A stretch of 64,000 bases of DNA from Aromatoleum bremense (GTDB lineage: Bacteria; Pseudomonadota; Gammaproteobacteria; Burkholderiales; Rhodocyclaceae), in contig NZ_CP059467.1 in NCBI RefSeq assembly GCF_017894365.1, positions 2,108,001-2,172,000 of the forward strand, given 5' to 3'. A model generated the notes under the pieces. The model did no database searches. It had not been told where the DNA came from and saw nothing but the letters and a program-made list of their open reading frames with translations. Of the stretch, positions 5,838 to 26,252 are shown piece after piece; positions within the stretch are counted from its first letter, which is position 1; every line of letters begins with the position of its first letter. Position numbers and translations under genes: made by a program.

Positions 5838-5851
5838 TTGATGTATATCAA
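5838..5851 (+). promoter_or_regulatory. perfect FNR/ANR-type box upstream of modA
   Basis: TTGAT-GTAT-ATCAA is an exact match to the FNR consensus TTGAT-N4-ATCAA. Its centre lies about 42 bases before the start point predicted by the hexamer TATATT (5875-5880), which is the spacing of an FNR-activated class II promoter. This suggests modA is switched on under low oxygen. The site is direct sequence observation; its use is inference. Confidence 0.6.
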
Positions 5852-5891
5852 TTCGAAAGCGCAATATCTAAGTGTATATTGCGCTTTCGAA
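5852..5891. promoter_or_regulatory. ModE-like operator, 16-bp perfect inverted repeat before modA
   Basis: TTCGAAAGCGCAATAT (5852-5867) and its exact complement (5876-5891) flank an 8-base spacer. Inside it is GCG-ca-ATA-N10-TAT-tg-CGC (5859-5884). The same geometry and total length of about 24 bp occur at 8144 and 14548, and it resembles the E. coli ModE operator. A likely -10 hexamer (TATATT, 5875-5880) lies inside it, so bound ModE-molybdate would block transcription. It could also fold as a hairpin in RNA. Confidence 0.6.
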
Positions 5892-5929
5892 AACAAGCCC
5901 ATGAGACCGCCGTGTTGACTCCCACATCC

Positions 5930-6673
5930 GTGAAAAAAGGCCTTGTCGTGCTCGCCGCCCTCGTCGCGACCGGCCTGGCGCATGCCGGCGAGGTGACGGT
6001 GTCTGCCGCCGCCAGCCTGACGAACGCCTTCAAGGACGTTGCCCAGCGCTATGAGGCGCAGCATCCCGGCTCAAGGGTCCTGCTGAATTTCGGCTCCTCC
6101 GATGCGGTGCTGCAGCAAATGGCCAAGGGGGCGCCTGTCGATGTCTTCGCCTCTGCGGACCAAGAGACGATGGACATGGCAGAGGCGCAGGGCTTGGTTG
6201 TCCGCGGGGAGCGGCACGACTTTGCCCGCAATGCCCTCGTACTGGTGGTCCCAAGTGACAGCAGGCAGTCCCTCGGCCGCCTGGACGACCTGATGCAGCC
6301 CGCTGTGCAGAGGGTCGCTATTGGCAACCCCGCGAGCGTTCCCGTCGGCCGGTATGCCAAGCATGCGCTGGAGGCGGCCAAGCTGTGGTCCGACGTTTCG
6401 TCAAAGGCGGTCAGCACCCAGAACGTTCGCCAGTCGCTCGACTACGTGGCGCGTGGCGAGGTGGATGCGGGTTTTGTCTATGCAACTGACGCGGCGGTCA
6501 TGAAAGACAAGGTGCGTGTGGCTTTCGAGGTGCCGCTGGATGTCGCGATCGCGTATCCGATCGCGCGGACGGTGGGGAGTACGAACGCCGAGGAAGCCCA
6601 ACGATTCGTTGCCTTCGTGCTGTCGCCGACCGGGCAGGCGATCCTTGGCAAGTATGGCTTCCAGAAGCCGTGA
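5930..6673 (+). CDS. modA: ModA, periplasmic molybdate-binding protein
   Basis: About 247 residues. A signal peptide (VKKGLVVLAALVATGLAHA) is followed by the family start GEVTVSAAASLTNAF, where the serines contact the oxyanion. Further ModA blocks are LLNFGSSDAVLQQMAKGAPVDVFASAD and GFVYATDA near the C-terminus. It binds molybdate or tungstate in the periplasm for ModBC. The frame is open back to TTG 5879, but that lies inside the operator and -10, so it cannot be the start. In-frame starts are GTG 5912, TTG 5915 and GTG 5930; I chose 5930 because the signal peptide begins there. None has a clear ribosome binding site, so the start is uncertain. Confidence 0.9.
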   Translation: MKKGLVVLAALVATGLAHAGEVTVSAAASLTNAFKDVAQRYEAQHPGSRVLLNFGSSDAVLQQMAKGAPVDVFASADQETMDMAEAQGLVVRGERHDFARNALVLVVPSDSRQSLGRLDDLMQPAVQRVAIGNPASVPVGRYAKHALEAAKLWSDVSSKAVSTQNVRQSLDYVARGEVDAGFVYATDAAVMKDKVRVAFEVPLDVAIAYPIARTVGSTNAEEAQRFVAFVLSPTGQAILGKYGFQKP

Positions 6674-6691
6674 GCCGGGTCTCGATAACAC

Positions 6692-7363
6692 ATGGAGTCG
6701 GCATGGACGGCGCTGGCCCTCTCATTGAAGGTCGCCGGCTGGGCTACGGCGATCGACCTGGTGCTAGGCGTTGCCGTGGGTTACCTGCTGGCGCGCACGC
6801 GCTTCCCCGGGCGAGATCTGCTCGACACGCTGCTGACACTGCCAATGGTGATGCCTCCGACCGTGCTGGGCTATTACCTGCTGGTGATGATCGGGCGGCG
6901 TGGCTGGCTGGGGGCGTGGTTGCACGAGCAGTTCGCGATCAACTTGATCTTCACTTGGCAGGGCGCGGTGATCGCGGCCTCCATCGTGGCTTTCCCGCTC
7001 GTGTTCAAGCCCGCCCGCGCAGCCTTCGAGGCCGTGGACGGGCAACTGGAGCAGGCTGCGCGGGTGCTGGGTATCCCCGAGGTCGCCGTATTCTTCCGCG
7101 TCACCTTGCCGCTGGCGTGGCGTGGCATCCTGGCCGGCTTGCTGCTGGCCTTTGCCCGTGCACTGGGCGAGTTCGGAGCGACCTTGATGGTGGCCGGCAG
7201 TATTCCCGGCAAGACACAAACGCTGTCGGTGGCGGTATACGAAGCGGTCCAGGCCGGACAGGACGATACCGCCAACCTGCTCGTGCTCATCACTTCGGTG
7301 GTGTGCGTGGTGGTGCTGCTGGCGGCGGGGCGGCTTGCTCCCGGCCGCGTTGCCAGCCGCTAG
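6692..7363 (+). CDS. modB: ModB, molybdate ABC transporter permease
   Basis: 223 residues with about five or six hydrophobic segments. The cytoplasmic coupling loop EQAARVLGIPEVAVFFRVTL and the following ALGEFGATLMVAGSIPGKTQ are hallmarks of ModB. It forms the membrane channel of ModABC. ATG 6692 lies 18 bases past the modA stop, and the next gene begins 12 bases after its end, so the three form one transcript. Length and motifs are normal. Confidence 0.95.
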   Translation: MESAWTALALSLKVAGWATAIDLVLGVAVGYLLARTRFPGRDLLDTLLTLPMVMPPTVLGYYLLVMIGRRGWLGAWLHEQFAINLIFTWQGAVIAASIVAFPLVFKPARAAFEAVDGQLEQAARVLGIPEVAVFFRVTLPLAWRGILAGLLLAFARALGEFGATLMVAGSIPGKTQTLSVAVYEAVQAGQDDTANLLVLITSVVCVVVLLAAGRLAPGRVASR

Positions 7364-7375
7364 GGAGGCCGCGCG

Positions 7376-8077
7376 ATGCAGCTTGACCTAGACGTTCGCA
7401 AGACCCTGCGGTCCGGCCAGCGGGTGTTCCATCTCGATGTACGTCTTCAATCCAGCAGCCAACGTATCGTGATCCTAGGCCCGTCCGGTTCGGGCAAGAG
7501 CCTGACGCTCAAGGCCATCGCTGGCTTGCTGCGCCCGGATTCTGGCCATATTCGCCTTGACGGGAAGGTACTGTTCGACGCTGCAAAAGGCATTCATCTG
7601 CCGCCCCAGGGGAGAGAAGTGGCCTACGTCTTCCAAGACTACGCCCTGTTTCCGCACCTGACCGTGCGGCAGAACATTGCCTTTGGGCTGACGCGAGGGT
7701 GGTTCAACCCGCTGGCGCATGTCCGGCACGAAACGGTCGAGTACTGGCTGGATGCGTTCCAACTCGCCCATCTCGCCCACCAGTTCCCGGTTGAACTGTC
7801 GGGTGGGCAGCGCCAGCGCACTGCGCTGGCACGGGCCTTGGTGGCGAGACCGCGCGCCCTCCTGCTGGACGAACCTTTCGCCGCACTCGATCCGACCTTG
7901 CGCATTGCGATGCGCGAGGAGTTGGGAGAACTCCAGCAGCGGCTGCAGGTGCCGATGGTGCTCATCACGCATGACCCGGAAGACGCGGTGGTCTTCGGCG
8001 ATCACGTCCTGAGCCTGCAAGACGGGCGCTTCGCCGTCGAGGCCGGGGAAGGGGCGCTGGAGGTCTTGCATGCGTGA
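7376..8077 (+). CDS. modC: ModC, molybdate ABC transporter ATPase, short form without TOBE domain
   Basis: 233 residues. Walker A GPSGSGKS, Q-loop region VAYVFQDYALFPHLTV, signature LSGGQRQRTALARAL and Walker B LLLDEPFAALDP are all intact, with the switch histidine in VLITHDPEDAV. Most ModC proteins are about 350 residues because a C-terminal molybdate-binding TOBE/Mop domain follows; here the protein stops right after the ATPase fold. Transport should still work, but the regulatory molybdate-binding tail is missing. The paired TOBE domains of ModE at 25440 remain the only molybdate sensor seen in the cluster. Start ATG 7376 follows GGGAGG. Confidence 0.92.
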   Translation: MQLDLDVRKTLRSGQRVFHLDVRLQSSSQRIVILGPSGSGKSLTLKAIAGLLRPDSGHIRLDGKVLFDAAKGIHLPPQGREVAYVFQDYALFPHLTVRQNIAFGLTRGWFNPLAHVRHETVEYWLDAFQLAHLAHQFPVELSGGQRQRTALARALVARPRALLLDEPFAALDPTLRIAMREELGELQQRLQVPMVLITHDPEDAVVFGDHVLSLQDGRFAVEAGEGALEVLHA

Positions 8078-8143
8078 GCCGCCCATTCGGCTTCGCCACC
8101 TGAACAGCGGCCAGGGGAAGGTGTCGCCACTTTTTTTTGCCAA

Positions 8144-8169
8144 TCGTTATATATAAGTTGCTATTGCGA
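8144..8169. promoter_or_regulatory. ModE-like operator upstream of the first TonB receptor gene
   Basis: TCG-tt-ATA-N10-TAT-tg-CGA, an interrupted palindrome with the same geometry as the sites at 5859 and 14548. The stretch from here to 8173 is also alike in detail to the third site (both contain aagttgctatt). It ends 18 bases before the receptor start codon, so it probably covers the promoter. Confidence 0.6.
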
Positions 8170-8187
8170 ACCAAGGGAGAAATATTG

Positions 8188-10221
8188 ATGTTCAGGCCAC
8201 CGAGAAATCCATCCTTTCCACGAACGCGACGGGCTGCACTGGCAACGGCCGTTGCCGTTGCGAGTGGCTGCACGGCGGCATGGGCACAGGAAGGGCGCGG
8301 CGCAACGCCGTTCGAACTGGGCGCCATCCAGGTGACGGTTCCGCGCCTCGCTCTCGGCGAGATCGCGCCGGAGCAAGTCTCCTCGGTGGTCACGCGCGAG
8401 GACATCCAGACGTTCAACCGCGAAACCGTGGGCGAAGCCGTCAATCTGCTCTCCGGGGTGACGGTGTCGACCAACTCGCGCAACGAGCAGACGGTTTACC
8501 TGCGCGGCTACGATCCGCGCCAGGCGCCGTTGTTCATCGACGGTATCCCGGTCTATGTGCCCTATGACGGATATGTCGACTTTGGTCGCTTCGACACCGG
8601 CGACCTCGCCGCGATACAGGTCGCCAAGGGGTTCAGCTCCGTGGCCTACGGCCCCAACACGCTGGGCGGCGCCATCAACCTGATCTCGCGCAAGCCGGGC
8701 AAGGCCTTCGAGGGTGACGCGAGCATCGGTTTCGGCGAGGATGGTGCCCGCCGGGCGGCGGTCAATCTCGGCAGCAACCAGGGCGTCTGGTACGTGCAGG
8801 CCGGCGTTGCCCATCGCGAAGCCGATGGCTTCAGGCTGTCCGACGACTTCAGGCCGACCGCGACGGAGGACGGCGGCCGGCGCGACAACGCCTACTACAA
8901 GGACAGCAAGGCCTCGTTGAAACTGGGTCTGACCCCCGGAGGCGGCGACGAATACGCGCTGACCTACATCAAGCAGGACGGCGAGAAGGGCCAGCCGCCG
9001 TCGACCGACCCGACCGCCGCGCGTTACTGGCAGTGGCCATACTGGGACAAGGAGAGCCTGTACTTCGTCTCGCGCACCGCGTTGGGTGCGCATGAGACGC
9101 TGAAGCTGCGCCTCTTTGCCGACTGGTTCGACAATGAGGTGAACAGCTACACCGACGCGACCTACGCCATGCTCAAGACGAGCGGTTCCGGCAGCGTGTC
9201 CACCGGCCGCAGCATCTATCACGACAAGACTCATGGCGGCGCTGTGGAACTCGAGTCGCGGCGCTTCGAGGGCCATCTGGTGCGCTTCGTCGCCCAGACG
9301 AAGAGCGACCGGCATGAGGAGCGCGACGGTGACGATGCCCTGGGCGCGGATTTCGAGGACACCCTGCGCTCGCTGTCGGTCGAGGACGGCATCTCGATCG
9401 GTGACAAGACGTTGCTGTCAATCGGCCTGGCCCATCACGAACTCGAACCGGAAAAGGTGTTCAGCAGCGGTGGCACCTTCACCCTGCCGCGTCGCCAGCG
9501 CGCCACCGATGCGCAGATCGGCCTGTTCTACGATCTGACGCCAACGGCGCGACTGTACGCGACCGTGGCGGAGAAGACCCGCTTGCCCACCCTCAAGGAT
9601 CGCTACTCCATCCGCCTGGGCCGTTTCATCGAGAACCCGGACCTCGAGGTCGAACAGGCGCGCAACTACGAGATCGGCTACCAAGGGCAGCCCTGGGCCG
9701 GTGCCCAGGCGGACGCCGCGATCTTCTGGAGCGATATCGAGGACAAGATCCAGAGCGTCAACCTGAATGGCGCGGCCAGCTGCAGCGCCGCCAACCAATG
9801 CCAGATGCAGAACGTCGGAAAGGCGCGAATCAAGGGCATCGAGCTTGGCCTCAAGACACCGCTCGGCGCACGCTGGGAGATCGGCGGCAACGCGACCTGG
9901 ATGGATGTGGAGAACGTCAGCGATCCAGCGACAAGGCTGACGAAAATCCCGGAGACGAAGGTCATCCTGCATGCGCTGTGGCGGGCCGCGGCGGCGGTGG
10001 ACATGATCGCCTTCGCCGAGCATGACAGCGGCCGCTGGGCCAGCGACACGGTCAAGCTGGACGGGTTCACCACGCTGAATCTCAAGATGGTCTGGCGACC
10101 GATGAAGGATCTGTCCGCCGAGCTGCGGGTCAACAACGTCACCGACCGGAACTACGAACTCGAGGCGGGCTTTCCTGCGCCAGGGCGCATGTGGTTCGCC
10201 AGTCTGGACTACCGGTTCTGA
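8188..10221 (+). CDS. TonB-dependent outer membrane receptor 1
   Basis: 677 residues. The signal peptide ends near CTAAWAQ. A plug domain follows, with VTREDIQTFNRETVGEAVNL and GAINLISRKPGKAFEG. A long beta-barrel ends in the C-terminal motif FASLDYRF, whose final aromatic residue is needed for outer-membrane insertion. The frame is open to 8137, but ATG 8188 has a good ribosome binding site (GGGAGA) and avoids the operator. The gene heads a run of tightly packed genes for a binding-protein-dependent importer, so the ligand is probably a metal chelate. The ModE-like operator points to molybdenum or tungsten, not iron; this is inference, since receptors cannot be assigned a ligand from motifs alone. 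Confidence 0.93.
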   Translation: MFRPPRNPSFPRTRRAALATAVAVASGCTAAWAQEGRGATPFELGAIQVTVPRLALGEIAPEQVSSVVTREDIQTFNRETVGEAVNLLSGVTVSTNSRNEQTVYLRGYDPRQAPLFIDGIPVYVPYDGYVDFGRFDTGDLAAIQVAKGFSSVAYGPNTLGGAINLISRKPGKAFEGDASIGFGEDGARRAAVNLGSNQGVWYVQAGVAHREADGFRLSDDFRPTATEDGGRRDNAYYKDSKASLKLGLTPGGGDEYALTYIKQDGEKGQPPSTDPTAARYWQWPYWDKESLYFVSRTALGAHETLKLRLFADWFDNEVNSYTDATYAMLKTSGSGSVSTGRSIYHDKTHGGAVELESRRFEGHLVRFVAQTKSDRHEERDGDDALGADFEDTLRSLSVEDGISIGDKTLLSIGLAHHELEPEKVFSSGGTFTLPRRQRATDAQIGLFYDLTPTARLYATVAEKTRLPTLKDRYSIRLGRFIENPDLEVEQARNYEIGYQGQPWAGAQADAAIFWSDIEDKIQSVNLNGAASCSAANQCQMQNVGKARIKGIELGLKTPLGARWEIGGNATWMDVENVSDPATRLTKIPETKVILHALWRAAAAVDMIAFAEHDSGRWASDTVKLDGFTTLNLKMVWRPMKDLSAELRVNNVTDRNYELEAGFPAPGRMWFASLDYRF

Positions 10222-10230
10222 GGACGGACG

Positions 10231-10794
10231 ATGGCAACCTTGACAGCCCATGCCGCCGGGCCGGCCCTCTCGCCGACCAACACCAGCCCCATCGCCGCAA
10301 TCGTTCATCTCGAGCACGGCGTCGCCGACGGCGTCCTCGCCGACTTTGCCTTTGCCCTGCGCCAGGCGGGCCGGCGGGTCCGGGGGGTGGTTCAGCAGTC
10401 CACGGGCGGTACGGGCAAGGAGGCGACGATGCTCGTCGATCTCGACCAGGGAACTCGCTTCCCCCTCTTCCAGCGCCTCGGCGCGGGCGCCGGCTCGTGC
10501 AGCATCGACCAGCACGGCGTGGCTGCCGCGAGCGTGGTCCTGCGCGGTGCGCTCGATGCGGCCCCCGATCTCGTCGTGGTCAATCGTTTTGGTGCGCTGG
10601 AGGCGGCGGGCGAGGGATTTGCCGACGAGATGCTGGCCCTGATGAGCGAGGGTATTCCCCTGCTCACCGTCGTCGCCGAAGCCTATCGATTCGACTGGCA
10701 GCACTTCACCGGCGGCGCTGGTGTGGAACTCGACCCGAGCCGGGAGGCGCTCGATGCCTGGTTCGCCGGCCTGCAACGGGGTAGCGGCCAGTGA
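10231..10794 (+). CDS. DUF2478 protein, molybdenum-associated NTPase-like fold
   Basis: 187 residues. The pattern IAAIVHLEHGVADGVLADFA, GRRVRGVVQQ, LVDLDQGTRFPLFQRLG and DLVVVNRFGALEA matches DUF2478, a small P-loop-like family that often lies beside molybdate transport genes. Its biochemical role is not known. It sits 9 bases behind the receptor gene and overlaps the following binding-protein gene by 4 bases, so it is made together with the importer. A part in sensing or handling molybdenum in the cytoplasm would fit. Confidence 0.75.
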   Translation: MATLTAHAAGPALSPTNTSPIAAIVHLEHGVADGVLADFAFALRQAGRRVRGVVQQSTGGTGKEATMLVDLDQGTRFPLFQRLGAGAGSCSIDQHGVAAASVVLRGALDAAPDLVVVNRFGALEAAGEGFADEMLALMSEGIPLLTVVAEAYRFDWQHFTGGAGVELDPSREALDAWFAGLQRGSGQ

Positions 10795-11843
10795 AGCGGC
10801 GCGACCTCTTGCGTGCACTGGCCATCGCGCCCTGGCTGGCCTTGGTGCCGGCAGGGGCGCGGGCAAAGGCCGGTGTCGGGAGCACAATCGCCGCTGCCTA
10901 CGGCACCCTGCCGCCGCCGCAGGCGATTCGCCGCGTGTTCGCCGCCGGCGCGCCGGCCAGCGTGCTCCTGAGCGTGCTCGCACCGGAGAAGCTGATCGGC
11001 TGGCCGTTCAAGGTGTCCGAAGAGGCGCGCGCCTGGCTGGCGCCGGTGGTGCGCGCGCTGCCGCAGGTCGGCCGCCTCGCCGGTCGCGGCAGCACGGCGT
11101 CGAACGAGGCGCTGCTGCAAATGAAGCCGGACGTCATCCTCGACGTCGGCACCGTCGACGCGACCTACCTCTCCGCCATGCAGCGAGTGGCCGAGCAGAC
11201 CGGATTGCCGTGCCTGCTGGTGCAGGGACGCATGGCCGACCACCCGGCGCAGTTGCGCGAGGTCGGCCGACTGCTCGGCGTGGCGGCGCGCGGCGAGCGC
11301 CTCGCCGCCTGGGCCGAAGAGACCCTCGCGCTGGCGGAGCGCGCGCGCAACGAAGTGCCGCCCGGGGCGCGTCCGCGCGTCTATTACGGGCGTGGCGGCG
11401 ATGGCCTTGAAACCGGGCTGGACGGATCGATCAACATGGAGGCGATCGAGATCGCCGGTGGCCGCAACGTCGCCGCCGAGTCGGGGCGCGGCGGGCTGAC
11501 CAAGGTGTCGCCCGAGCAGATCCTCGCCTGGGATCCGGAGGTGATCGTCACGCAGGATCGCGAGTTCGCCCGTGGCGTGCTCGCCGATCCGCTGTGGCGT
11601 CCGGTCGCCGCCGTGCGGGCGCGTCGCGTGCACCTGGCGCCGAGCCTTCCGTTTGGCTGGCTGGACGGGCCGCCGGGTGTCAATCGCCTGGTCGGTGTAC
11701 GCTGGCTGATCGAGCGCCTCCATCCCGGCCGGGCGGGGGGCGAGGCTGCCCTTCAGACGGCTGCCCGCGACTTCTACCGCTTGTTCTACGGCATGGAGCC
11801 AGACGGGGCGGGTCTCAGCGCCATGATCGGCGGCCCGGCATGA
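10791..11843 (+). CDS. ABC transporter periplasmic binding protein (FecB/BtuF type), Tat-like signal
   Basis: 350 residues. The N-terminus KRRDLLRALAIAPWLALVPA carries twin arginines and may be exported folded through Tat. Then come the two lobes of a class III binding protein, with LLQMKPDVILDVGTVD in the first and PEQILAWDPEVIVTQD in the second. The segment LPFGWLDGPPGVNRL near the end is typical of a subgroup of FecB-like proteins in gene clusters for metal chelates. It passes its ligand to the permease at 11840. Overlaps of 4 bases on both sides show an operon. Confidence 0.9.
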   Translation: MKRRDLLRALAIAPWLALVPAGARAKAGVGSTIAAAYGTLPPPQAIRRVFAAGAPASVLLSVLAPEKLIGWPFKVSEEARAWLAPVVRALPQVGRLAGRGSTASNEALLQMKPDVILDVGTVDATYLSAMQRVAEQTGLPCLLVQGRMADHPAQLREVGRLLGVAARGERLAAWAEETLALAERARNEVPPGARPRVYYGRGGDGLETGLDGSINMEAIEIAGGRNVAAESGRGGLTKVSPEQILAWDPEVIVTQDREFARGVLADPLWRPVAAVRARRVHLAPSLPFGWLDGPPGVNRLVGVRWLIERLHPGRAGGEAALQTAARDFYRLFYGMEPDGAGLSAMIGGPA

Positions 11844-12925
11844 ATGACGCTCCAGACCTTTCCCGTGGCCCGTCCACGCACGGAGCCGGTGTCGCCGCGG
11901 CGGTCAACGCTGGCGCGCCGTGCCGCCCCGCGGCGGCTTGGCTGGCGGGTGCCGCCGCGTTGCTGGCGGTGCTCGCCGTGGCCTTCGCGACCGGCAAGTT
12001 TCCGGTGGCACCGGCCGACCTGCTGCGTGCGCTGGTCGCGCGCCTGTCCGGCAGCGAGTCCGGCTTGCCCGAGGCCGTGGAAACCGTCATCTGGAACATC
12101 CGCCTGCCGCGCGTCGCCGCCGGTGTCGTCGTCGGCGCCGTGCTAGCCGCAGCGGGCGCCGCCTACCAGGGCATGTTCCGCAACCCGCTGGTGTCGCCGG
12201 ACATCCTCGGGGTCTCCGCTGGTGCCGGTCTGGGCGCCACGCTCGGCATCTACCTCGGCCTGCCGCTCATCTTCGTGCAGGTCGTCGCCTTCGGCGGCGG
12301 CATCATCGCCGTCGCCATCGTCTACCGCCTCGCTTCGCTGGTGCGGCGCCATGATCCGGTGCTGGTCCTGGTGCTCGCCGGCGTCGCGCTCGGTGCGCTG
12401 CTTGGCGCCGGCATCTCACTGGTCAAGATCCTTTCCGACCCGTATACGCAGCTGCCGACGATCACCTTCTGGCTGCTCGGCGGACTCAACCAGGTGATCT
12501 CGCGCGACCTGGCGACCACCGCGCCGGCGATGCTCGCCGGCTTGCTGCCGATGGCGCTGCTGCGCTGGCGCATCAACCTCCTTGGCCTCGCTGACGAAGA
12601 GGCGGCAGCGCTCGGGGTCGACGTCGGGCGCCTGCGCCTGGTTCTCGTCACCGCCGCAACGCTGTCGACCGCCGCTGCCGTCTCGCTGGCCGGTATCGTT
12701 GGCTGGGTCGGGCTGGTCGTGCCGCATGTCGCGCGCCTGCTCGTCGGCCCTGACTTCACCCGCCTGCTGCCGGCCTCGCTCATGCTCGGGGCCGGCTTCC
12801 TCGTCGCGACCGACACGCTGGCCCGGACGATCGCGCCGATCGAGCTGCCGCTCGGCATCCTGACGGCGGTGGTGGGCGCCCCTTTCTTCCTGTGGCTGTT
12901 GGCGCGCACGGGGAGGCCGGCATGA
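11840..12925 (+). CDS. FecCD/BtuC-family ABC permease 1
   Basis: 361 residues from ATG 11840, with about nine or ten membrane helices. Family motifs include the early RLPRVAAGVVVGAVLAAAGA, QGMFRNPLVSPDILGVSAGA, the coupling loop LGLADEEAAALGVDVGRLRL and GIVGWVGLVVPHVARLLVGP. Members import iron-siderophores, haem or cobalamin as intact chelates, so the substrate here is expected to be an organic complex and not a bare oxyanion. Its start overlaps the binding-protein stop, and its end overlaps the ATPase start by 4 bases. Confidence 0.93.
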   Translation: MNDAPDLSRGPSTHGAGVAAAVNAGAPCRPAAAWLAGAAALLAVLAVAFATGKFPVAPADLLRALVARLSGSESGLPEAVETVIWNIRLPRVAAGVVVGAVLAAAGAAYQGMFRNPLVSPDILGVSAGAGLGATLGIYLGLPLIFVQVVAFGGGIIAVAIVYRLASLVRRHDPVLVLVLAGVALGALLGAGISLVKILSDPYTQLPTITFWLLGGLNQVISRDLATTAPAMLAGLLPMALLRWRINLLGLADEEAAALGVDVGRLRLVLVTAATLSTAAAVSLAGIVGWVGLVVPHVARLLVGPDFTRLLPASLMLGAGFLVATDTLARTIAPIELPLGILTAVVGAPFFLWLLARTGRPA

Positions 12926-14513: not shown

Positions 14514-14547
14514 TTGGCAGGCGTCAGTTTCAGACCGCTCACGCCGA

Positions 14548-14573
14548 TCGCTATACACAAGTTGCTATTTCGA
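14548..14573. promoter_or_regulatory. ModE-like operator upstream of the radical SAM gene
   Basis: TCG-ct-ATA-N10-TAT-tt-CGA, same geometry as at 5859 and 8144. The stretch gatcgctatacacaag then ttgctattt parallels the receptor site base for base over most of its length. It ends 11 bases before the ATG of the radical SAM gene, so the message must have a very short leader or start inside the site. Confidence 0.6.
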
Positions 14574-14584
14574 GACCAAAACCG

Positions 14585-18983: not shown

Positions 18984-19738
18984 GCGTGGCTGACCTCGTC
19001 TATCGCCGCGCGCCGAGCGAGGCGCCGGTGCTCGACGGCATTGACCTGTCGCTCGCAAGGGGCGAGATCCTGTGCCTGCTGGGGCCCAACGGCACCGGCA
19101 AGACGACCCTGCTGCGCTGCCTGGTCGGCGCACTGCGGCACGAGCGTGGCGAGGTGCGCATCGACGGCGAATCCGGCGTCCCTCCCCGGCGTCTCGCCCG
19201 CGCGCTCGCCTACGTGCCGCAGGCGGCCGGCGACAGCGGCCTGACCTTGCTCGATGTCGCGCTGATGGGCCGCACGCCGTACCTGCCGCCCCTCAGCCTG
19301 CCCGGCCGCCACGATGAGCGGGTCGCGCGCGAGGCGCTGATGCGGGTTGGCATCGCACATCTGGCACAGCGGCCGTTCAACCGCGTCAGCGGCGGCGAGC
19401 GCCAGCTCACGCTGATCGCCCGTGCGCTGGCCCAGCAGCCGCGCCTGTTCATGATGGACGAACCGATGGCCAGCCTCGACCTCGGCAACCAGGCCCGCGT
19501 GCTGCGCGTGATCCGCGATCTCGCCGCCGATGGCATGGCCGTCCTTGTCACCACCCACCAGCCCGAGCACGCGTTCCTGCTTGGCGCGCGCGTCCTCGCC
19601 CTGGCCGGCGGCCGCATCGCCGCCGCCGGTGCGGCGCGGGACGTGCTGCACGCGCACACGCTGACCGCCCTGTACGACACGCCGGTGGAGGTCATCGCCC
19701 ATCGTGGCGCACCGGCGGCCTGCATTCCGCGCCTGTGA
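18974..19738 (+). CDS. ABC transporter ATPase 2 (FecE/BtuD type)
   Basis: 254 residues. Walker A GPNGTGKTTLLRCL, Q-loop at ALAYVPQAAGD, signature RVSGGERQLTLIARAL, Walker B LFMMDEPMASLDLG, switch histidine in TTHQPEHAF. The ATG at 18974 overlaps the permease by 10 bases. It supplies energy for importer 2. Confidence 0.92.
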   Translation: MVLSVADLVYRRAPSEAPVLDGIDLSLARGEILCLLGPNGTGKTTLLRCLVGALRHERGEVRIDGESGVPPRRLARALAYVPQAAGDSGLTLLDVALMGRTPYLPPLSLPGRHDERVAREALMRVGIAHLAQRPFNRVSGGERQLTLIARALAQQPRLFMMDEPMASLDLGNQARVLRVIRDLAADGMAVLVTTHQPEHAFLLGARVLALAGGRIAAAGAARDVLHAHTLTALYDTPVEVIAHRGAPAACIPRL

Positions 19739-19751: not shown

Positions 19752-20774
19752 ATGTTGTTCCGCTTCCTGCCGTTCCTGGTCGCTTTCGTCGCCGCCATCG
19801 CCCAGGCCGCGCCGCCGCGCGTGGTGGAGGACATGGCGGGCGACGAGGTTGCCCTGCCCGCGCGGGTCGAGCGTGTCGCCACCATTGGCGCGGTGCCAGT
19901 GCTCAACGGCCTCGTCTTCGCCGTCGGCGAGGGCCGGCGCATCGTCAATGGCCTGCCGGAGTTCGCCCGCAAGCCGCGCTGGGGCTACCAGGCGGTCTTT
20001 GCCCCGCACACTGCCGCGCTGCCCACGCTCCAGAACCACGACCGCACGCCGAACCTGGAGGCCCTGCTCGGCGCGGCGCCCGACGCGGTGCTGACCATGG
20101 ATCGGGCGAGCGCCGACGCCCTGCGCCGTGCCGGCCTGCCGGCGCTCTACCTCGCCTGGCGCCAGCCCGAGGATGTGAAGACGGCGGTGCGCCTGCTCGG
20201 CCGCGTCTTCGACCAGCCGCAGGCCGCCGAGCGCTACGCCGAGCGCTTCGACCGCATGCTCGCGGACGTTGCGGCGCGCCTGCGCGACGTGCGGACACGA
20301 CCGCGCGTGCTCTACTTCAGTCCGAAGACGCTGACGCAACCTCATCTGGTGGTCGAATGGTGGATCCGCGCGGCGGGCGGCGAGAGCGTCACCGACGACG
20401 GCCGCACCGTCGAATCGCGCAGCTTCACCCTCGAGCAACTGCTCGCCTGGAACCCCGACATCCTCATCGTCGCCAGCCACGAGGAGGCGGAGACGGTGCG
20501 CCGCGAGCCGCGCTTCGCCAACCTGGCCGCCGTGCGCGCTGGGCGCATCCTGGTGGCGCCCAGCGGCGCCCACACCTGGGGCAACCGCACCTCCGAACAG
20601 CCGCTCACGGTGCTGTGGGCGGCGAAACACTTCCACCCCGAGCGCTTCGGCGACATCGACGTCGTCGCCGAGACGCAAGCCTTCTATCACGACATTTTCG
20701 GCGCCGACCTCTCTGCCGCGCAGGTGCGCGAAATCCTCGATGGCGGCCCCAGGACGACCCTGGCCGCGCGTTGA
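19752..20774 (+). CDS. ABC transporter periplasmic binding protein 2
   Basis: 340 residues from ATG 19752, which follows AAAGGAGA. A Sec signal peptide (FRFLPFLVAFVAAIAQA) precedes a class III binding protein: RVVEDMAGDEVALPARVERV, then LEALLGAAPDAVLTMDRASA, and EQLLAWNPDILIVASHEEAE in the second lobe. Unlike binding protein 1 it has no twin arginines. It completes the second importer (receptor 2, permease 2, ATPase 2). Confidence 0.9.
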   Translation: MLFRFLPFLVAFVAAIAQAAPPRVVEDMAGDEVALPARVERVATIGAVPVLNGLVFAVGEGRRIVNGLPEFARKPRWGYQAVFAPHTAALPTLQNHDRTPNLEALLGAAPDAVLTMDRASADALRRAGLPALYLAWRQPEDVKTAVRLLGRVFDQPQAAERYAERFDRMLADVAARLRDVRTRPRVLYFSPKTLTQPHLVVEWWIRAAGGESVTDDGRTVESRSFTLEQLLAWNPDILIVASHEEAETVRREPRFANLAAVRAGRILVAPSGAHTWGNRTSEQPLTVLWAAKHFHPERFGDIDVVAETQAFYHDIFGADLSAAQVREILDGGPRTTLAAR

Positions 20775-20805
20775 TTCCAATGCTATCGATACCAAGGAGC
20801 ATGAA

Positions 20806-21879
20806 ATGGACATGACCACGATGAAGTTCGATCTCGCCAGCCTGGAGGCTCCGCCCGCAGTCGCGGTGCTGGACCGCGTCGCCGGAGGGTTCAAGGCCTT
20901 CCAGGCCCTGCGCGCGGGCTACGGCAGCGGACTGTTCGACTGGCTGGACCGCAACGGGCCCGCCGAGCGGGCGGTCATCGCCACGGCCCTGAAACTGCGC
21001 GGCGCGCATCTGGCGGGCTTCCTCCAGTCCCTGGAGGACCTCGGCCTCGTGTCGCGCCAGGGCAGCGTGTACGCCCTGGTTCCCGAGATGCGCGAGGTGC
21101 TCGTCGCCGGCAGTGCCTGGTGCCAGGCAGCGACGATCGAGCGCCTTTTGGCGCCGGAATGCGGCTGGTCAGATCTGCGCGGCTTCCTGTCCGAGGACTG
21201 GACGGCGGCGAGCGTGCCCGTGTCGCCATCCCCAAGGCTGCACCCCTTCCTGGTGGAGGCGCGGCTTCTGGCGACCCGGCTGGCGGCGCGGGAGAGGGAA
21301 CTGCGCGGTGGCGCCAAGCCGCGCCGCCTGCTGTGCTTCGATGGCGGCGGTGGCATAGCGGTGGCGGCCATCTGCCTTGCGCAACCCGGGTTGGACGCGT
21401 CCGTCATCGTTGCGCCGGGCGCCGTGCGGGAGGCGACGGAACTGCTCGACGCCTGCGGCCTGGCTGAGCGATGCGTTGTCCATCCCGGTTCTCCGCTCGA
21501 AATATCCGTGCCGGCAAGCTACGACCGCGTGGTGCTGTTCCACGCGCTCTACCCCTTGCGCAAGTCCATGGGTGACGCGCTTGCAGCCGTTGCCGCGCGC
21601 CTGGCGCCGGGTGGCGAATTGTGTTCGGCCCACTGGTTTTGCCTGGAGGCCTGCGAGACCGCGCCAGGTGGCCTGCGCGACCTGGACCGGGCGGTGCTGA
21701 CCGACAGCCATCCGCTCTGCCATGTGGAGACCTTCGGCGAGCGATTTGTCGCGGCCGGGCTCGGCGACGAGGGGCGGGAGGACATAGACGGCCCCTGCGG
21801 CCACCTGAAGCTGCATTTCGCCTCTCGTGCCCTGGACCCCGTGGTGGTTTCACCGTACCTGCGCTGCTCGCGTTGCTGA
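20806..21879 (+). CDS. O-methyltransferase-like SAM enzyme 2
   Basis: 357 residues. The N-terminal 110 residues read as a winged-helix dimerisation domain (FKAFQALRAGYGSGLFDWLD, GFLQSLEDLGLVSRQGSVYA), as in small-molecule O-methyltransferases. The SAM loop is LLCFDGGGGIAVAAICLA, and the region VVLFHALYPLRK corresponds to the later SAM motif. Such enzymes methylate hydroxyls on phenolic or heterocyclic compounds. It follows binding protein 2 and precedes a DUF364 gene. With methyltransferase 1 and the radical SAM enzyme it gives the cluster three enzymes suited to building a small organic ligand; the reaction is not known. Confidence 0.8.
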   Translation: MDMTTMKFDLASLEAPPAVAVLDRVAGGFKAFQALRAGYGSGLFDWLDRNGPAERAVIATALKLRGAHLAGFLQSLEDLGLVSRQGSVYALVPEMREVLVAGSAWCQAATIERLLAPECGWSDLRGFLSEDWTAASVPVSPSPRLHPFLVEARLLATRLAARERELRGGAKPRRLLCFDGGGGIAVAAICLAQPGLDASVIVAPGAVREATELLDACGLAERCVVHPGSPLEISVPASYDRVVLFHALYPLRKSMGDALAAVAARLAPGGELCSAHWFCLEACETAPGGLRDLDRAVLTDSHPLCHVETFGERFVAAGLGDEGREDIDGPCGHLKLHFASRALDPVVVSPYLRCSRC

Positions 21880-21890
21880 GGAATGTCGAC

Positions 21891-22775
21891 ATGAAGACAG
21901 CGAACGACATGATCCCGAGCCGAATGGCCGACTGCCCGCCAGCCACCTTGCTCGCCGACCTGCACGCGACCGTGGTCGAGCGCCTCGGCGCCGAGGCCGA
22001 GTCGCTGACCTTCGAACGCGCCGTCCTCGGCATCTTCTTCACCGGCGTCAAGCTCGCCAACGGCGCCGGCGGCCTGTGCGCGACGCCGATCAAGAGCGTG
22101 CCCGAGGCCGTCTGCTGCCCGAGCTCGGCGAAGGCCATGCCGATCCCTGGCAAGATCGCCGGCCGCAAGGCGGTACAGGTGCTCGACGACCTCTACCGGC
22201 CGCAGGACCTGCGCCGGACGCTGGCCATCGCTACCTTGAACGCGCTCGCCGAGACGCTGTGGATGCGCGACGGCGGGCCGGCCGGCGCCGAGGTGAGCGA
22301 CGGCGATGCCTTCGACGCGCTGGTCATCCCGCCCGGCGCGCGCGTCGCGCTGGTCGGCGCCTTCCCGCCGTACATGCGCGAGTTGCGCCGGCGCGGCCAG
22401 CCCTTCCACGTGCTGGAAATGGACCCAGCGACGCTGAGGCCCGAGGAAATGCCGTTCTACGCGTCGGCCGACCGGGCGCCGGAGCTCGTGCCGAAGGCCG
22501 ACGTCTTCATCACCACCGGCACGACGCTGATCAACGGCACGCTCGACGGGCTGCTGCGCCTGCTGCGGCCGGGCGCCGAGGCGGCGGTGATCGGGCCGAC
22601 GGCGACGCTGATCGCCGAGCCCTTCGCCCGGCGCGGTGTCACCGCCGTCGGCGGCACGCGCGTGCGAGCCCCGGACGAACTGCTCGAACTGCTGGCCGAA
22701 GGGGGCTCCGGGTATCACTTCTTTGGCAAGACAGTCGAGCGCGTCACCCTGCGCCTCCCACCGCTGCAGCAGTGA
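21891..22775 (+). CDS. DUF4213/DUF364 putative heavy-metal-chelation protein
   Basis: 294 residues from ATG 21891. The N-terminal DUF4213 region includes GVKLANGAGGLCATPIKSVP and then CCPSSAKAMPIPGKI. The C-terminal Rossmann-like DUF364 region has VALVGAFPPYMRELRRRGQP, then ADVFITTGTTLINGTLDGLL and VIGPTATLIAEPFARRGVTA. This pair is annotated from structural work as a possible heavy-metal chelation or metal-handling fold; no reaction is known. The cysteine and histidine content (GLC, CC, YHFF) would allow metal binding. The last base overlaps the first base of tonB. Confidence 0.8.
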   Translation: MKTANDMIPSRMADCPPATLLADLHATVVERLGAEAESLTFERAVLGIFFTGVKLANGAGGLCATPIKSVPEAVCCPSSAKAMPIPGKIAGRKAVQVLDDLYRPQDLRRTLAIATLNALAETLWMRDGGPAGAEVSDGDAFDALVIPPGARVALVGAFPPYMRELRRRGQPFHVLEMDPATLRPEEMPFYASADRAPELVPKADVFITTGTTLINGTLDGLLRLLRPGAEAAVIGPTATLIAEPFARRGVTAVGGTRVRAPDELLELLAEGGSGYHFFGKTVERVTLRLPPLQQ

Positions 22776-23548
22776 TGTCGGCGATGGAGGAGTACCTCTG
22801 CGGCAGCGGCAAGCCGGGCCAGGAGAAGGCACCGGTGGCGGCGTGGCGCTGGCGGCGACCGCTGCTGCAGTGGTCCGGGGTCGGCCTCGCGCATGCTGCC
22901 CTGCTCGGCATCGTGCTGCAGGTGTCGCCACAGGCAAGGCAGGCGCTGGGTCATGTGATCGAGGCCAGCCTGGTCGTCCCGCGACCGGTGGCCGTGGCGG
23001 CCGCGCAGCCGACGGCCGTGGCGGCCGCGCAGCCGACGGCCGTGGCGGCCGCGCAGCCGACGGCCGTGCCGGAGCCGACACCGACGCCGCCCAGGCCGCC
23101 GAAGGAGAGCACGCCGGCGCCAAGAGCACCGCGGCCAGCGACGCCGCGACCGATCGCGGCACCGCCCGCCGAGGCGCCGCCGTCCTCCGATGTCGCGTCG
23201 GAGCCTGCCGCCGAGCCGGCGTCGGCGGTCGTATCGGTGCCCACCGCCGTTCCCGCCGCACCTCCGCCGCTGGTGCTGCCGGTCTTCAATGCCGACTACC
23301 TCGACAACCCGGCGCCGCTGTACCCACCGATGTCGCGCCGTCTCGGCGAAACGGGCCGTGTCCTGCTGCGCGTGCTCGTTTCGGTCGACGGATATGCCGA
23401 TCAGGTCGAGGTCGGGACCTCGTCGGGGTTCGAGCGGCTCGACGCCGTCGCGCGCCAGGCGGTCGTCCGCTGGCGCTTCGTTCCAGCACGTCGGGGCGAC
23501 GAGAGGGTCGCCGCGTGGGTGCTGGTCCCGATCTCCTTTGTCATGTGA
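22775..23548 (+). CDS. tonB: TonB energy-transducing protein
   Basis: 257 residues. One membrane helix (VGLAHAALLGIVLQ) near the N-terminus, a long proline- and alanine-rich periplasmic spacer, and a C-terminal TonB domain (NPAPLYPPMSRRLGETGRVL ... FERLDAVARQAVVRWRFVP). It links proton-motive force from ExbB/ExbD to the outer-membrane receptors. It lies in one operon with exbB and exbD, so the cluster has its own dedicated energising machine. Start ATG 22775 overlaps the DUF364 stop by one base. Confidence 0.93.
   Translation: MSAMEEYLCGSGKPGQEKAPVAAWRWRRPLLQWSGVGLAHAALLGIVLQVSPQARQALGHVIEASLVVPRPVAVAAAQPTAVAAAQPTAVAAAQPTAVPEPTPTPPRPPKESTPAPRAPRPATPRPIAAPPAEAPPSSDVASEPAAEPASAVVSVPTAVPAAPPPLVLPVFNADYLDNPAPLYPPMSRRLGETGRVLLRVLVSVDGYADQVEVGTSSGFERLDAVARQAVVRWRFVPARRGDERVAAWVLVPISFVM
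22994..23065 (+). repeat. 24-bp tandem repeat, three copies, in the tonB spacer
   Basis: The unit gtggcggccgcgcagccgac plus ggcc occurs three times without mismatch, encoding VAAAQPTA three times in the periplasmic spacer of TonB. Perfect identity suggests a recent slipped-strand expansion that can change spacer length. Confidence 0.95.
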
Positions 23549-23556
23549 GTCCCGCC

Positions 23557-24267
23557 ATGTTCGAAAGCTCTCTGGGTATTGCCCATTTCCTGACGCAGGC
23601 CGACACGGCGGCGCGCGTCATTCTCATCGCGATGTTGCTCGCCTCACTCGCCAGCTGGGGGATCATCGTCGATCGACTGGTCGCGCACTGGTTGCAGCGG
23701 CGACGGCAGGTGGTGTTCCTTGCGCGCTTCCGGCGTGTCCGCGCCTTTGAGGAACTGGGCGCGGTCCTCTCCGCAGGTGCTGAGGATGCGTGCGCCCGCC
23801 TGGCGCGCCTGGCGATCGAGTCCGCCCGGCATTTCTCGGCGCACGGGGAGGCCGGTGGACGCCAGGAGTTCCTGGTACGGGCGCTGCGACAAGGCATCGA
23901 GGAGGAGGCGGAACGGCTCGAGCGGGGGCTGACGCTGCTCGCCTCGGTCGGCTCGACCGCGCCCTTCGTTGGCCTGCTCGGTACCGTCTGGGGGATCTAT
24001 CACGCCCTGATCGCCATCGGCCTGTCGGGGCAGGGCACCCTCGACAAAGTGGCCGGCCCGGTCGGCGAGGCGCTGATCATGACGGCCATCGGCCTTGCCG
24101 TGGCGATCCCGGCGGTGCTCGGCTACAACGCGCTGACGCGGCGCAACCGTGTCGTGCTCGGCCGCCTCGATGCGCTCGGCCACGACTTGCTTACGCTGGC
24201 GCTTACCGGCGCGCCGCTGCGGCGAGGTGCCGCCGAGGCGCCTGCTCGCATCGCGAGGGCTGTGTGA
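23557..24267 (+). CDS. exbB: ExbB, TonB-complex proton channel protein (MotA/TolQ/ExbB family)
   Basis: 236 residues with three membrane segments: AARVILIAMLLASLASWGII near the N-terminus, then GLTLLASVGSTAPFVGLLGT with GTVWGIYHAL, and GEALIMTAIGLAVAIPAVLG. The second and third carry the conserved pore motifs of the family. It forms the pentameric inner-membrane proton channel with ExbD. The stop shares a base with the exbD start. Confidence 0.93.
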   Translation: MFESSLGIAHFLTQADTAARVILIAMLLASLASWGIIVDRLVAHWLQRRRQVVFLARFRRVRAFEELGAVLSAGAEDACARLARLAIESARHFSAHGEAGGRQEFLVRALRQGIEEEAERLERGLTLLASVGSTAPFVGLLGTVWGIYHALIAIGLSGQGTLDKVAGPVGEALIMTAIGLAVAIPAVLGYNALTRRNRVVLGRLDALGHDLLTLALTGAPLRRGAAEAPARIARAV

Positions 24268-24728
24268 TGGGGCTGGGCACGCTGGGTTCGGGCGGCGCCG
24301 GACGCCCGATGGCCGAGATCAACATCATTCCGCTGGTCGACGTGATGCTGGTGCTGCTCGTCGTCTTCATCGTCACTGCGCCGCTGCTCACGCATGCCGT
24401 CAAGCTCGAATTGCCGCAGGCGAGTAGCCGCCCCAATGTGGCGCCTGCCGAGCATATCGAGATCGCGGTACAGCGCGATGGACAGATGCATTGGAACGGC
24501 GAGGCGGTGTCTCGCGCTGAGCTGGAACGACGCGCGTGGCAGCTTGCCGAAAGGGCGGCGGACACCGAGATCCACCTCAAGGGAGATGCCGCGGTGCCCT
24601 ATGGGGAGATGGCCTGGACCTTGTCGGCGCTGGCGCGGCGCGGGCTGACGCGCGTCGGGTTCGTCACCGATCCCGGCGAGGCCGTGGCGCCCGATCGCGG
24701 GGCAGGCGGTGCCGGGGCGTTTCCATGA
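24267..24728 (+). CDS. exbD: ExbD, TonB-complex proton channel protein
   Basis: 153 residues. MAEINIIPLVDVMLVLLVVF carries the single membrane helix with the proton-carrying aspartate (LVDVMLVLL). A periplasmic domain follows, with IEIAVQRDGQMHWNGE and EIHLKGDAAVPYGEM. It works with ExbB and TonB encoded just upstream. Confidence 0.93.
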   Translation: MGLGTLGSGGAGRPMAEINIIPLVDVMLVLLVVFIVTAPLLTHAVKLELPQASSRPNVAPAEHIEIAVQRDGQMHWNGEAVSRAELERRAWQLAERAADTEIHLKGDAAVPYGEMAWTLSALARRGLTRVGFVTDPGEAVAPDRGAGGAGAFP

Positions 24729-24793
24729 TGCGCAATGGTCCCAGTCCATGGAGCAGAGCAACTTTCGTGAACCCGCCTGGAAGGAGCAAGGCA

Positions 24794-25465
24794 ATGAAGA
24801 TCGTACGAACCAGCCCGCGATGGCCGGCGCCATCCCAATCGGGCATGTCCCGCCGGATGCCTGGCCGTGACCGGGAGGATGCTGGCGCGGCGCGCGACCA
24901 TACCCTGATGCTGCGGGCGATATCGGGTGTTCTGCGGAACGCCCAGTGTGGCGAACTTCCAGTGTTCGCGTGGACGCTCGGGCTCCCGCAACAGGCCCTG
25001 CTGGAAATGGTCGAGCGATGCTTCCCGGAACTCGGTGCGCTGGAGGGGTTGTCAGATATGCAGTATGCGAGCCTCAAGGCGGCGCAGCCACCGTACTTCC
25101 AGGCGCTGGTGGCCCTGTTGATGACGCGGCGTACCGCGGGCGTGGATGAACACGTGGCCACGTGGCTTGCACATGCGATCGCGGCGGCATGCCACGGTGA
25201 ACGCCATTTGTGGGAAGACCTGGACCTTGGCGGACGCGACGACGTGTCGCGCCTGCTGGAGCGGTACTTCCACCCTTTGTACCTCGCCAACTCACGAAAC
25301 CTGCGCTGGAAGCGGTTCTTGTTTGCCGAACTCGGTGCCGTCCTGGGGAGAACGGACTGCCTGCCTCCCGGGTGCCATCGGTGCGACCAACACCGGGTAT
25401 GCTTTCCCGAGTCCAAGGCACAAGGGGTGAGCGTACACGATGGAATCGACCAAGAAGAGCATTGA
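24794..25465 (+). CDS. nifQ: NifQ-family molybdenum-handling protein
   Basis: 223 residues from ATG 24794, which has AAGGAG at the right distance (frame also open to 24725). The C-terminal cysteines in CLPPGCHRCDQHRVCFPE are spaced CX4CX2CX5C, the exact NifQ signature that holds a Mo-Fe-S cluster. The central part, with LPVFAWTLGLPQQALLEMVE and FHPLYLANSRNLRWKRFLF, also matches NifQ. In nitrogen fixers NifQ passes molybdenum into FeMo-cofactor assembly. No other nif gene is in the window, so here it may serve as a general molybdenum entry protein or support a nif cluster elsewhere. It overlaps modE by 26 bases. Confidence 0.88.
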   Translation: MKIVRTSPRWPAPSQSGMSRRMPGRDREDAGAARDHTLMLRAISGVLRNAQCGELPVFAWTLGLPQQALLEMVERCFPELGALEGLSDMQYASLKAAQPPYFQALVALLMTRRTAGVDEHVATWLAHAIAAACHGERHLWEDLDLGGRDDVSRLLERYFHPLYLANSRNLRWKRFLFAELGAVLGRTDCLPPGCHRCDQHRVCFPESKAQGVSVHDGIDQEEH

Positions 25466-26252
25466 GCTGCAAGGCTCGGTATGGATGACGGTGGGCGGCG
25501 AGAATTTTGGCGGTCCCGGCCGGATCGAGCTGCTGGCCAGGATCGCCGAATGCGGTTCGATCACGCAGGCCGCCAAGGCGATCAAGATGAGCTACAAGGC
25601 CGCATGGGATGCCATCGACACCATGAACAACCTGGCCGGGGAGCCGCTGGTCGAGCGCCTGGCAGGCGGCAAGGGCGGTGGCGGAACCCGGCTGACTCGC
25701 CGGGGCGAGCAACTGGTCGAGAACTTTCGCCTTGTCCAGCGGGAGCATCGGCGCTTTATCGAGCAATTGGCCCAGCAGGCCGATGACATCGCAGATGACT
25801 ATTTGTTGATCAGGAGGATGAGCATGAAAACCAGTGCCCGGAACCAGTTTCTCGGCAAGGTCACCTTGGTGAAGCCGGGGGCGGTGAACGACGAGATCGA
25901 ACTGGAGGTGGCCGGGGGCCAGAAGCTGGTCGCCATCGTGACGCACGAAAGCACCGAGAGCCTCGGCCTGCGCGTCGGGGCCGAAGCCTTCGCCTTGGTC
26001 AAGTCGTCATCGATCATCCTGGTCACGGATGACGATGGCGCACGCTTCTCGGCCCGCAACCGGCTCACAGGAACGATTGCCCGCGTCCAGACCGGCGCAG
26101 TCAACACGGAAGTCGTGCTTGACCTGCCAAACGGGGCTTCGGTGGCCGCGATCGTGACCAATGAGAGCAGCGCGGCCCTTGGGCTGGCGGCGGGTAAGAC
26201 GGCGTCGGCCATCTTCAAGGCGTCGAGCATCATCCTCGGGGTTCCGGCCTAG
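25440..26252 (+). CDS. modE: ModE, molybdate-responsive transcriptional regulator
   Basis: 270 residues. The N-terminal winged helix-turn-helix has IAECGSITQAAKAIKMSYKA and WDAIDTMNNLAGEPLVERLA, with GGGTRLTRRGEQLVENF. Two Mop/TOBE molybdate-binding repeats follow, beginning SARNQFLGKVTLVKPGAVND and SARNRLTGTIARVQTGAVNT. Dimers bound to molybdate repress or activate at ModE boxes; three candidate boxes lie in this cluster. Start ATG 25440 is inside the end of nifQ, so the two are translationally coupled. Confidence 0.95.
   Translation: MESTKKSIELQGSVWMTVGGENFGGPGRIELLARIAECGSITQAAKAIKMSYKAAWDAIDTMNNLAGEPLVERLAGGKGGGGTRLTRRGEQLVENFRLVQREHRRFIEQLAQQADDIADDYLLIRRMSMKTSARNQFLGKVTLVKPGAVNDEIELEVAGGQKLVAIVTHESTESLGLRVGAEAFALVKSSSIILVTDDDGARFSARNRLTGTIARVQTGAVNTEVVLDLPNGASVAAIVTNESSAALGLAAGKTASAIFKASSIILGVPA

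Follow-up and report, generated by a model that had tools for sequence, protein, structure and literature searches.

A predicted ModE-controlled gene island of Aromatoleum bremense as a candidate import system for a molybdenum or tungsten complex

We analysed a 64,000-nucleotide window of the genome of Aromatoleum bremense (positions 2,108,001 to 2,172,000 of contig NZ_CP059467.1, a genome of one contig of 4,376,837 bases), in which family scans and the list of open reading frames delimit a cluster of 21 genes, all on the + strand, at 5930-26252, which we call here the island (Table 1). It starts with modABC and ends with modE, and encodes in between two TonB-dependent outer-membrane receptors (TBDT1 and TBDT2), two FecCD-type importers with their ATPases and substrate-binding proteins (SBP1 and SBP2), a DUF2478 protein, a methyltransferase (MT1) and a methyltransferase-like protein (MT2), a radical S-adenosylmethionine (SAM) enzyme, a DUF4213-DUF364 protein (hereafter DUF364), TonB-ExbB-ExbD and NifQ. 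From TBDT1 to modE, neighbouring genes overlap or are separated by at most 71 bp, and the chosen starts leave a gap of 110 bp between modC and TBDT1. Family scans confirmed both the gene families and the packed run described in the initial annotation of this DNA.

A near-identical gene order was found twice among other genomes. In the genome that we label G671, it runs TBDT1, DUF2478, SBP1, permease 1, ATPase 1, MT1, radical SAM, TBDT2, permease 2, ATPase 2, SBP2, MT2, DUF364, TonB, ExbB and ExbD, with nifQ on the opposite strand, two modABC sets and an adjoining ModE-like gene (82.3 bits, under the cut-off). G770 has a ~45-kb version with three radical SAM genes and several receptors and binding proteins, which ends as the island does, with MT2, DUF364, TonB, ExbB, ExbD, NifQ and ModE, followed by modABC. 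Because the same order recurs in other genomes, the arrangement of these genes is not due to chance. In two more genomes, the module has one importer in the stretch fetched, with a dimethyl sulfoxide (DMSO)-reductase-family enzyme and an Fe-S/DmsC protein upstream of DUF2478 (G120), or is split over contigs and includes three radical SAM genes (G670; its pieces L042 and L043 overlap, making homology copy numbers there too high). These four genomes were found via the radical SAM gene, so that its presence in them is uninformative, whereas that of the other genes is informative. As a side observation, a gene for a protein with both cytochrome c and PF00174 (oxidoreductase molybdopterin-binding) domains lies between TBDT1 and DUF2478 in G770 (L060:12502-13311) and G861 (L093:2871-3794).

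Operator-like sequences place the island under predicted ModE control. Searching for CGNTATATAN6TATATANCG and allowing at most 3 mismatches, we detected two matches in the window and none in 100 shuffles of it; they precede modA and TBDT1, positions by which the ModE control initially proposed is borne out as a prediction. Across the 4.38-Mb genome the pattern occurs in three places, namely these two and one at the chromosomal modABC-modE. In G120, 6 of 9 places fall inside the cluster stretch of contig 8 and 2 more, on contig 4, lie beside modE/modABC and ~0.6 kb before a TBDT1-like gene; the cluster holds 3 of 4 places in G671 and 1 of 3 in G770, and 8 of the 9 in G670 are at module or mod genes. 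Pooling the five genomes, 23 of 28 strict pattern places are at module or mod genes, and 11 island-less congeners have 12 matches in 54.9 Mb, that is, 0.0045 expected per 20.4 kb. Binomial position tests, with cluster lengths rounded and G670 left out as it is split over contigs, gave P = 6.5e-5 for A. bremense (2/3), 4.3e-13 for G120 (6/9), 1e-6 for G671 (3/4) and 0.03 for G770 (1/3). With a looser palindrome scan, one match of score 14 appeared outside the island, at 52934, and ten 64-kb Markov sequences contained no palindrome scoring at least 15. The radical SAM gene is also preceded by a ModE-like site, with 0 mismatches in G670 and 3 in G120. Control of the island by ModE is thus a well-supported, strong prediction, and in the genomes traced the TonB and type II ABC import genes are tied, as had been anticipated, to ModE-type sites or mod genes.

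The initial annotation had named control by Fur or by a cobalamin riboswitch as what would speak against a molybdenum (Mo) function. We found no Fur-like 19-mer scoring at least 13 in the window at 1-28000 or in the related loci L003, L004 (from Candidatus Accumulibacter sp. 66-26, a metagenome-assembled genome of the same family as A. bremense), L007 and L023; L008 had two matches of score 13, at 14556 and 17433, both outside the module. At gathering score, Rfam gave no cobalamin riboswitch, either for the window or for any of 7 related loci. Neither form of control was found in these sequences.

Table 1 Predicted ModE sites and genes of the island (window coordinates; bit scores of family models)
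Feature	Position	Strand	Basis
Predicted ModE operator before modA	5860..5883		CGCAATATCTAAGTGTATATTGCG, 3 mismatches to CGNTATATAN6TATATANCG
modA, molybdate-binding protein	5930..6673	+	PF13531 208.6 bits; start uncertain, longest frame from 5879
modB	6692..7363	+	TIGR02141 245.2 bits, cut-off 182.6
modC, short, only ATPase part matched	7376..8077	+	TIGR02142 195.5 bits, cut-off 285.05, profile positions 7-212 of 353
Predicted ModE operator before TBDT1 and the long gene run	8145..8168		same pattern, at most 3 mismatches
TBDT1, TonB-dependent outer-membrane receptor	8188..10221	+	PF00593 and PF07715
DUF2478, NTPase-like	10231..10794	+	PF10649 165.5 bits
SBP1, substrate-binding protein	10791..11843	+	PF01497; nearest solved chains 4pag, 4ovk, 3psa (HI_1472, MolA)
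FecCD-type permease 1	11840..12925	+	PF01032 281.4 bits
ABC ATPase 1	12922..13719	+	PF00005
MT1, SAM-dependent methyltransferase	13716..14513	+	PF13649; intact DVGCGPGT
Weaker ModE-like palindrome before radical SAM gene	14547..14574		looser scan, 15 of 20; no match in stricter scans
Radical SAM enzyme, HydE/BioB/PylB type, nearest family HmdB (HcgA)	14585..15667	+	motif CELEPLCTYC; TIGR03957 110 bits, cut-off 320.9
TBDT2, TonB-dependent receptor, plug unrecognised by Pfam	15677..17917	+	PF00593 132.3 bits
FecCD-type permease 2	17925..18983	+	PF01032 276.2 bits
ABC ATPase 2	18974..19738	+	PF00005
SBP2, substrate-binding protein	19752..20774	+	PF01497
MT2, methyltransferase-like	20806..21879	+	invariant H276, C279, C283, H302, C305; profile nearest MTHB/DSYB and SibL methyltransferases
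DUF4213-DUF364 protein	21891..22775	+	PF04016 142.4 bits, PF13938 56.1 bits
TonB	22775..23548	+	PF03544 64.1 bits
ExbB	23557..24267	+	PF01618 115.9 bits
ExbD	24267..24728	+	PF02472 95.6 bits
NifQ, intact Cys motif	24728..25465	+	PF04891 118.3 bits; start uncertain
ModE, HTH plus TOBE domains	25440..26252	+	PF03459 in 2 stretches, PF00126; TOBE 110.9 bits; TIGR00637 104.4 bits, cut-off 98.5

The ModE-like sites of related loci had other neighbours as well. A DUF2325 (PF10087) gene starts at most ~200 bp behind such sites in three genomes (L007:9460-10785, L096:6092-7375 and L098:8975-10465), which suggests another member of the Mo regulon. A one-mismatch ModE-type site of G120 (L045:7272-7295) lies between a two-partner-secretion exoprotein gene, starting ~20 bp off, and an aconitase gene; it may be due to chance or mark an odd regulon member. 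Two fluoride riboswitches (L023:7789-7852 and 14725-14795) occur near the ModE-DUF2478 pair of G670.

The import genes provided clues about the cargo. The parts of a MolABC-type importer, FecCD permease and PF01497 binding protein, are present, and a profile built from seven binding proteins matched MolA (3psa) with 129.2 bits over nearly its full length, above the iron/siderophore binder 6b2x (97 bits) and the nickel (65.5), haem (55), B12 (BtuF, 40) and siderophore binders (FepB, 33; FhuD, 24). The MolA match fits Mo or tungsten (W), and is compatible both with the bare oxyanion and with a complex. The initial annotation had read FecBCD-type transporters as carriers of whole organic chelates; this is not always so, given that MolBC-A of Haemophilus influenzae (HI1470-1472), whose MolA these binding proteins match well, is a type II importer of molybdate (PMC4031551). 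The case for a chelate rests on the TonB receptors and not on FecBCD. These receptors, accompanied in the island by TonB-ExbB-ExbD, argue for a complexed cargo; the models scoring highest for TBDT1 were those of siderophore and B12 receptors, each below its cut-off.

To find out which genes accompany the importers constantly, we searched 297 genomes of the family with the DUF364 protein. Matches occurred in 13 of them, 10 close (at least 73%, A. bremense included) and 3 distant (34–37%; G709, G841 and G935), and the radical SAM gene was also present in only 3 of the 10 close ones. At six of the seven remaining close loci, permease, ATPase, SBP2-like protein, MT2 and DUF364 stand together with no radical SAM gene, and all six include a TonB receptor, recognised by Pfam in L093, L094, L098 and L099 and by homology in L095 and L097. 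ModE-like palindromes scoring at least 15 were found in 6 of the 7 pieces, all but L093. On a weakly resolved MT2 tree of 11 rows (good support at only 2 of its 8 inner branches), having or lacking the radical SAM gene takes 4 changes, versus 3.9 for shuffled labels; we therefore rejected this scattered gene as the mark of one lineage, and it seems to come and go. Since it is absent from six clusters and scattered on the tree, the constant core consists of the import genes and the MT2-DUF364 pair, to which a radical SAM gene and MT1 are optional additions.

The radical SAM protein has the C-X5-C-X2-C motif ascribed to it initially, with C77, C83 and C86 invariant in 16 of 16 sequences. Its best family model is HmdB (HcgA), below the cut-off (Table 1); this likeness is one to the family model, the ranking of families applies to the window protein, and the HmdB and BioB models each match 16 of the 16 relatives. 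A structure model (pLDDT, the model's confidence score, of 88.3) had a fold nearest to HydG, HydE, PylB and BioB. The same unusual motif occurs in HcgA, which produces a pyridinol precursor (PMC10100467). The gene is rare (2 of 300 genomes in a sample of the order and 1 of 398 in one of the phylum, A. bremense included), and exact peptide patterns, run against 84,980 species with one genome apiece, yielded 2 loci. Relatives of the protein come from metagenomes, Firmicutes, Desulfocapsaceae and anaerobes such as Syntrophomonas and Desulfosporosinus, and a search of PLSDB for a plasmid home gave no match at 1e-5. It appears as an add-on that is sometimes duplicated, with three copies in both G770 and G670.

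Of the two methyltransferases initially annotated, MT1 stood, with an intact SAM motif, and MT2 was weak in single-sequence family scans (best Pfam E 0.0035; 26.1 bits to BchU). An MT2 profile nevertheless matches solved methyltransferases. Its glycine motif is variable except for D179 and G183, whereas C177, H246, H276, C279, C283, H302 and C305 are the same in all 11 sequences; the structure model has a mean pLDDT of 72.7, falling below 50 at 279-305, most of the Cys/His stretch. These Cys and His residues might form a metal site or reflect a changed reaction. The motif AHWFCxxxCxxAPGG...TDxHPLC, invariant in 11 of 11 homologues, lies mostly in the low-confidence part of the model. As for DUF364, published gene contexts associate it with molybdate, tungstate and vanadium transport genes (PMC2954201). 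A second, distant DUF364 gene in the genome of L009 (L009:9226-12234) has a different setting, beside VWA/CoxE-like and pyruvate:ferredoxin oxidoreductase-type genes.

Taking these features together, we consider it somewhat probable that the island responds to Mo starvation by importing and unpacking a Mo or W complex, ligand making or remodelling being an optional addition. Dedicated import of a Mo or W species is likely, and the cells' own production of a chelator is possible. When Mo is scarce, ModE would leave the operators predicted before modABC and before the run from TBDT1 to modE. Judging from the gene families, the TonB-ExbB-ExbD proteins of the same run would power the two receptors, bringing the complex into the periplasm, from which the two FecCD-type importers and their MolA-like binding proteins would move it over the inner membrane, with ModABC handling free molybdate. 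Once in the cytoplasm, the complex would be unpacked or modified by the MT2-DUF364 pair, and NifQ, which keeps its metal-binding motif (C-X4-C-X2-C-X5-C), may retain the Mo set free. Where they are present, MT1 and the HcgA-like radical SAM enzyme might make or remodel the ligand.

Several points weigh against such an import and unpacking system. The ModE sites are sequence predictions, and a backward-pattern control gave counts of similar size (2 in A. bremense, 9 in G120, 4 in G670, 1 in G671 and 0 in G770, and 11 in the 11 congeners versus 12 matches to the pattern itself), so that the number of ModE matches alone proves nothing and it is their position that counts. Upstream of the radical SAM gene, the window has a weak site and G671 no more than a half site, and L093 has no ModE-like site of score 14 or more. 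The G670 pieces fetched showed neither DUF364 nor MT1, TonB-ExbB-ExbD occurred in only 2 of the 6 radical-SAM-less pieces (L098 and L099; some pieces are cut short), and the DUF364 gene of G747 stands without related transporters, its neighbour being a DUF2325 gene that has a ModE-like site. MolA was fourth in the profile list, after 4ovk (169.6 bits) and 4pag (147.9), both named only as periplasmic binding proteins, and 4hn9 (129.3), named as an iron-complex binder; moreover, the ligand of MolA is bare molybdate, for which a TonB receptor should be unnecessary.

Among the alternatives, a dedicated molybdophore appears possible and rather doubtful. The radical SAM enzyme, MT1, MT2 and DUF364 would build a secreted Mo chelator, retaken via the TonB receptors and FecBCD. 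The match to HmdB by the window protein and its 16 relatives, the pyridinol precursor formed by HcgA (PMC10100467), the intact SAM motif of MT1 and the ModE-like sites before the radical SAM gene (weak in the window, with 0 mismatches in G670 and 3 in G120) are in line with this. Nevertheless, six clusters have importer genes, MT2 and DUF364 and lack the radical SAM gene, MT2 is doubtful as a methyltransferase, and Pfam scans of the 21 + strand genes detected no exporter, nonribosomal peptide synthetase (NRPS) or NRPS-independent siderophore synthetase family, nor was a catecholate pathway seen among them. The single production pathway put forward at the outset consequently found no support in these genes or in the six clusters. 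A related proposal, which we regard as unlikely, is a dedicated Mo or W metallophore system built on HcgA-type chemistry, in which the radical SAM enzyme and MT1 would produce a small, heterocyclic, pyridinol-like ligand, receptor-SBP pairs duplicating with the radical SAM gene would capture its Mo complex, and MT2-DUF364 would strip the metal with the Cys/His site of MT2.

A MolABC-like system for bare molybdate or tungstate, in which the TonB receptors would concentrate the oxyanion itself, seems quite improbable. Molybdate is small enough to pass porins, the cluster already contains modABC, and the enzymes conserved with the transporter would be left without an obvious role, despite the clear preference of the binding-protein profile for MolA over BtuF, FepB and FhuD and the precedent of MolBC-A (PMC4031551). 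That the substrate is an iron siderophore, a corrinoid or another cofactor whose uptake is merely co-regulated by ModE is very improbable, because, even if the best models for TBDT1 (under cut-off) are siderophore and B12 receptors and 4hn9 and 6b2x are among the nearer relatives of the binding proteins, neither Fur-like box (window 1-28000) nor cobalamin riboswitch was found, modABC, NifQ and ModE belong to the same run here and in G770, and strict ModE-pattern places concentrate at module or mod genes.

In the standard view, Mo is taken up by ModABC as molybdate. The island resembles ModABC with ModE in starting with modABC and ending with modE, and differs in that its predicted regulon extends to outer-membrane receptors, FecCD-type importers and enzymes. 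With MolBC-A it shares the FecCD-type importer and a binding protein of the same class, MolA, which our profile covers almost from end to end; molybdate represses molB by way of a factor that the authors did not know, their uptake work used the 100 micromolar range, and the words TonB and siderophore are absent from the main text of that paper (PMC4031551), whereas the island has TonB receptors. In Azotobacter vinelandii, catecholate siderophores serve as molybdophores, and organic Mo complexes enter via outer-membrane receptors (PMC3440940, PMC10780190), as they would in the island; there, Mo uses iron siderophores and is freed in the periplasm to ModA (PMC10780190), unlike in the island with its FecCD-type inner-membrane importer under predicted ModE control and with nifH in 2 of 12 genomes. 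The radical SAM protein is like HcgA of [Fe]-hydrogenase cofactor synthesis in its motif and best family model, and unlike it in scoring far below that model's cut-off and in being encoded in bacteria among Mo and TonB genes. The DUF364 genes discussed with Dhaf4260 similarly lie beside rare-metal transporters, and the available text of that paper contains no link to TonB, ModE operators, MT2 or radical SAM enzymes (0 occurrences of the last term; PMC2954201). We dropped MorABC of R. capsulatus as a FecBCD comparison, since it is described as ModABC-like (PMC6925177). No ModE-linked TonB/FecBCD island was found in the literature, searched chiefly outside subscription journals.

The presence of NifQ had suggested delivery of Mo to nitrogenase. 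Nitrogenase (PF00148) was over the cut-off in none of 4 genomes, with one sub-cut-off match in G671, and nifH in 2 of 12 (G861 and G837), A. bremense not being one of them. Nitrogenase supply via NifQ was accordingly rejected for A. bremense, in whose genome these searches found no nitrogenase.

The island has an IS21-type transposase pair upstream and integrating conjugative element genes downstream (TIGR03756, 446.5 bits; TIGR03755, 587.7 bits), and tRNA-Gly (55858-55931) has an integrase-like gene next to it (53766-55634, minus strand; 198.9 bits, below a cut-off of 434). A search for the element end with the 24-base 3' end of this tRNA found no second copy save a two-mismatch match elsewhere. 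None of the 11 congeners covered by the family-wide searches yielded a radical SAM match at 1e-30 or a DUF364 match at 1e-20, and the island therefore looks acquired. Other genes nearby include one for a DMSO-reductase-family molybdoenzyme (G000:C1:2106726-2108810), which ends at window position 810, ~5 kb before modA, and is followed by a SIR2 gene at 767-1585. Between the conjugation genes and the integrase-like gene, a stretch at 37564-43632 contains a piece of an aromatic ring-dioxygenase large subunit gene, cis-dihydrodiol dehydrogenase (BphB/TodD) genes and an IS1182 transposase.

If import of complexed Mo or W by the island is true, a ModE-controlled route combining outer-membrane receptors and FecCD-type importers would imply competition for complexed Mo among some bacteria, much like that for iron. 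DUF364, DUF2478 and the HcgA-like radical SAM family would gain a testable context, and the question of a dedicated molybdophore would be open to experiment in organisms most of which (10 of 12) are without nifH. The interest of the system is high because every step of it is testable.

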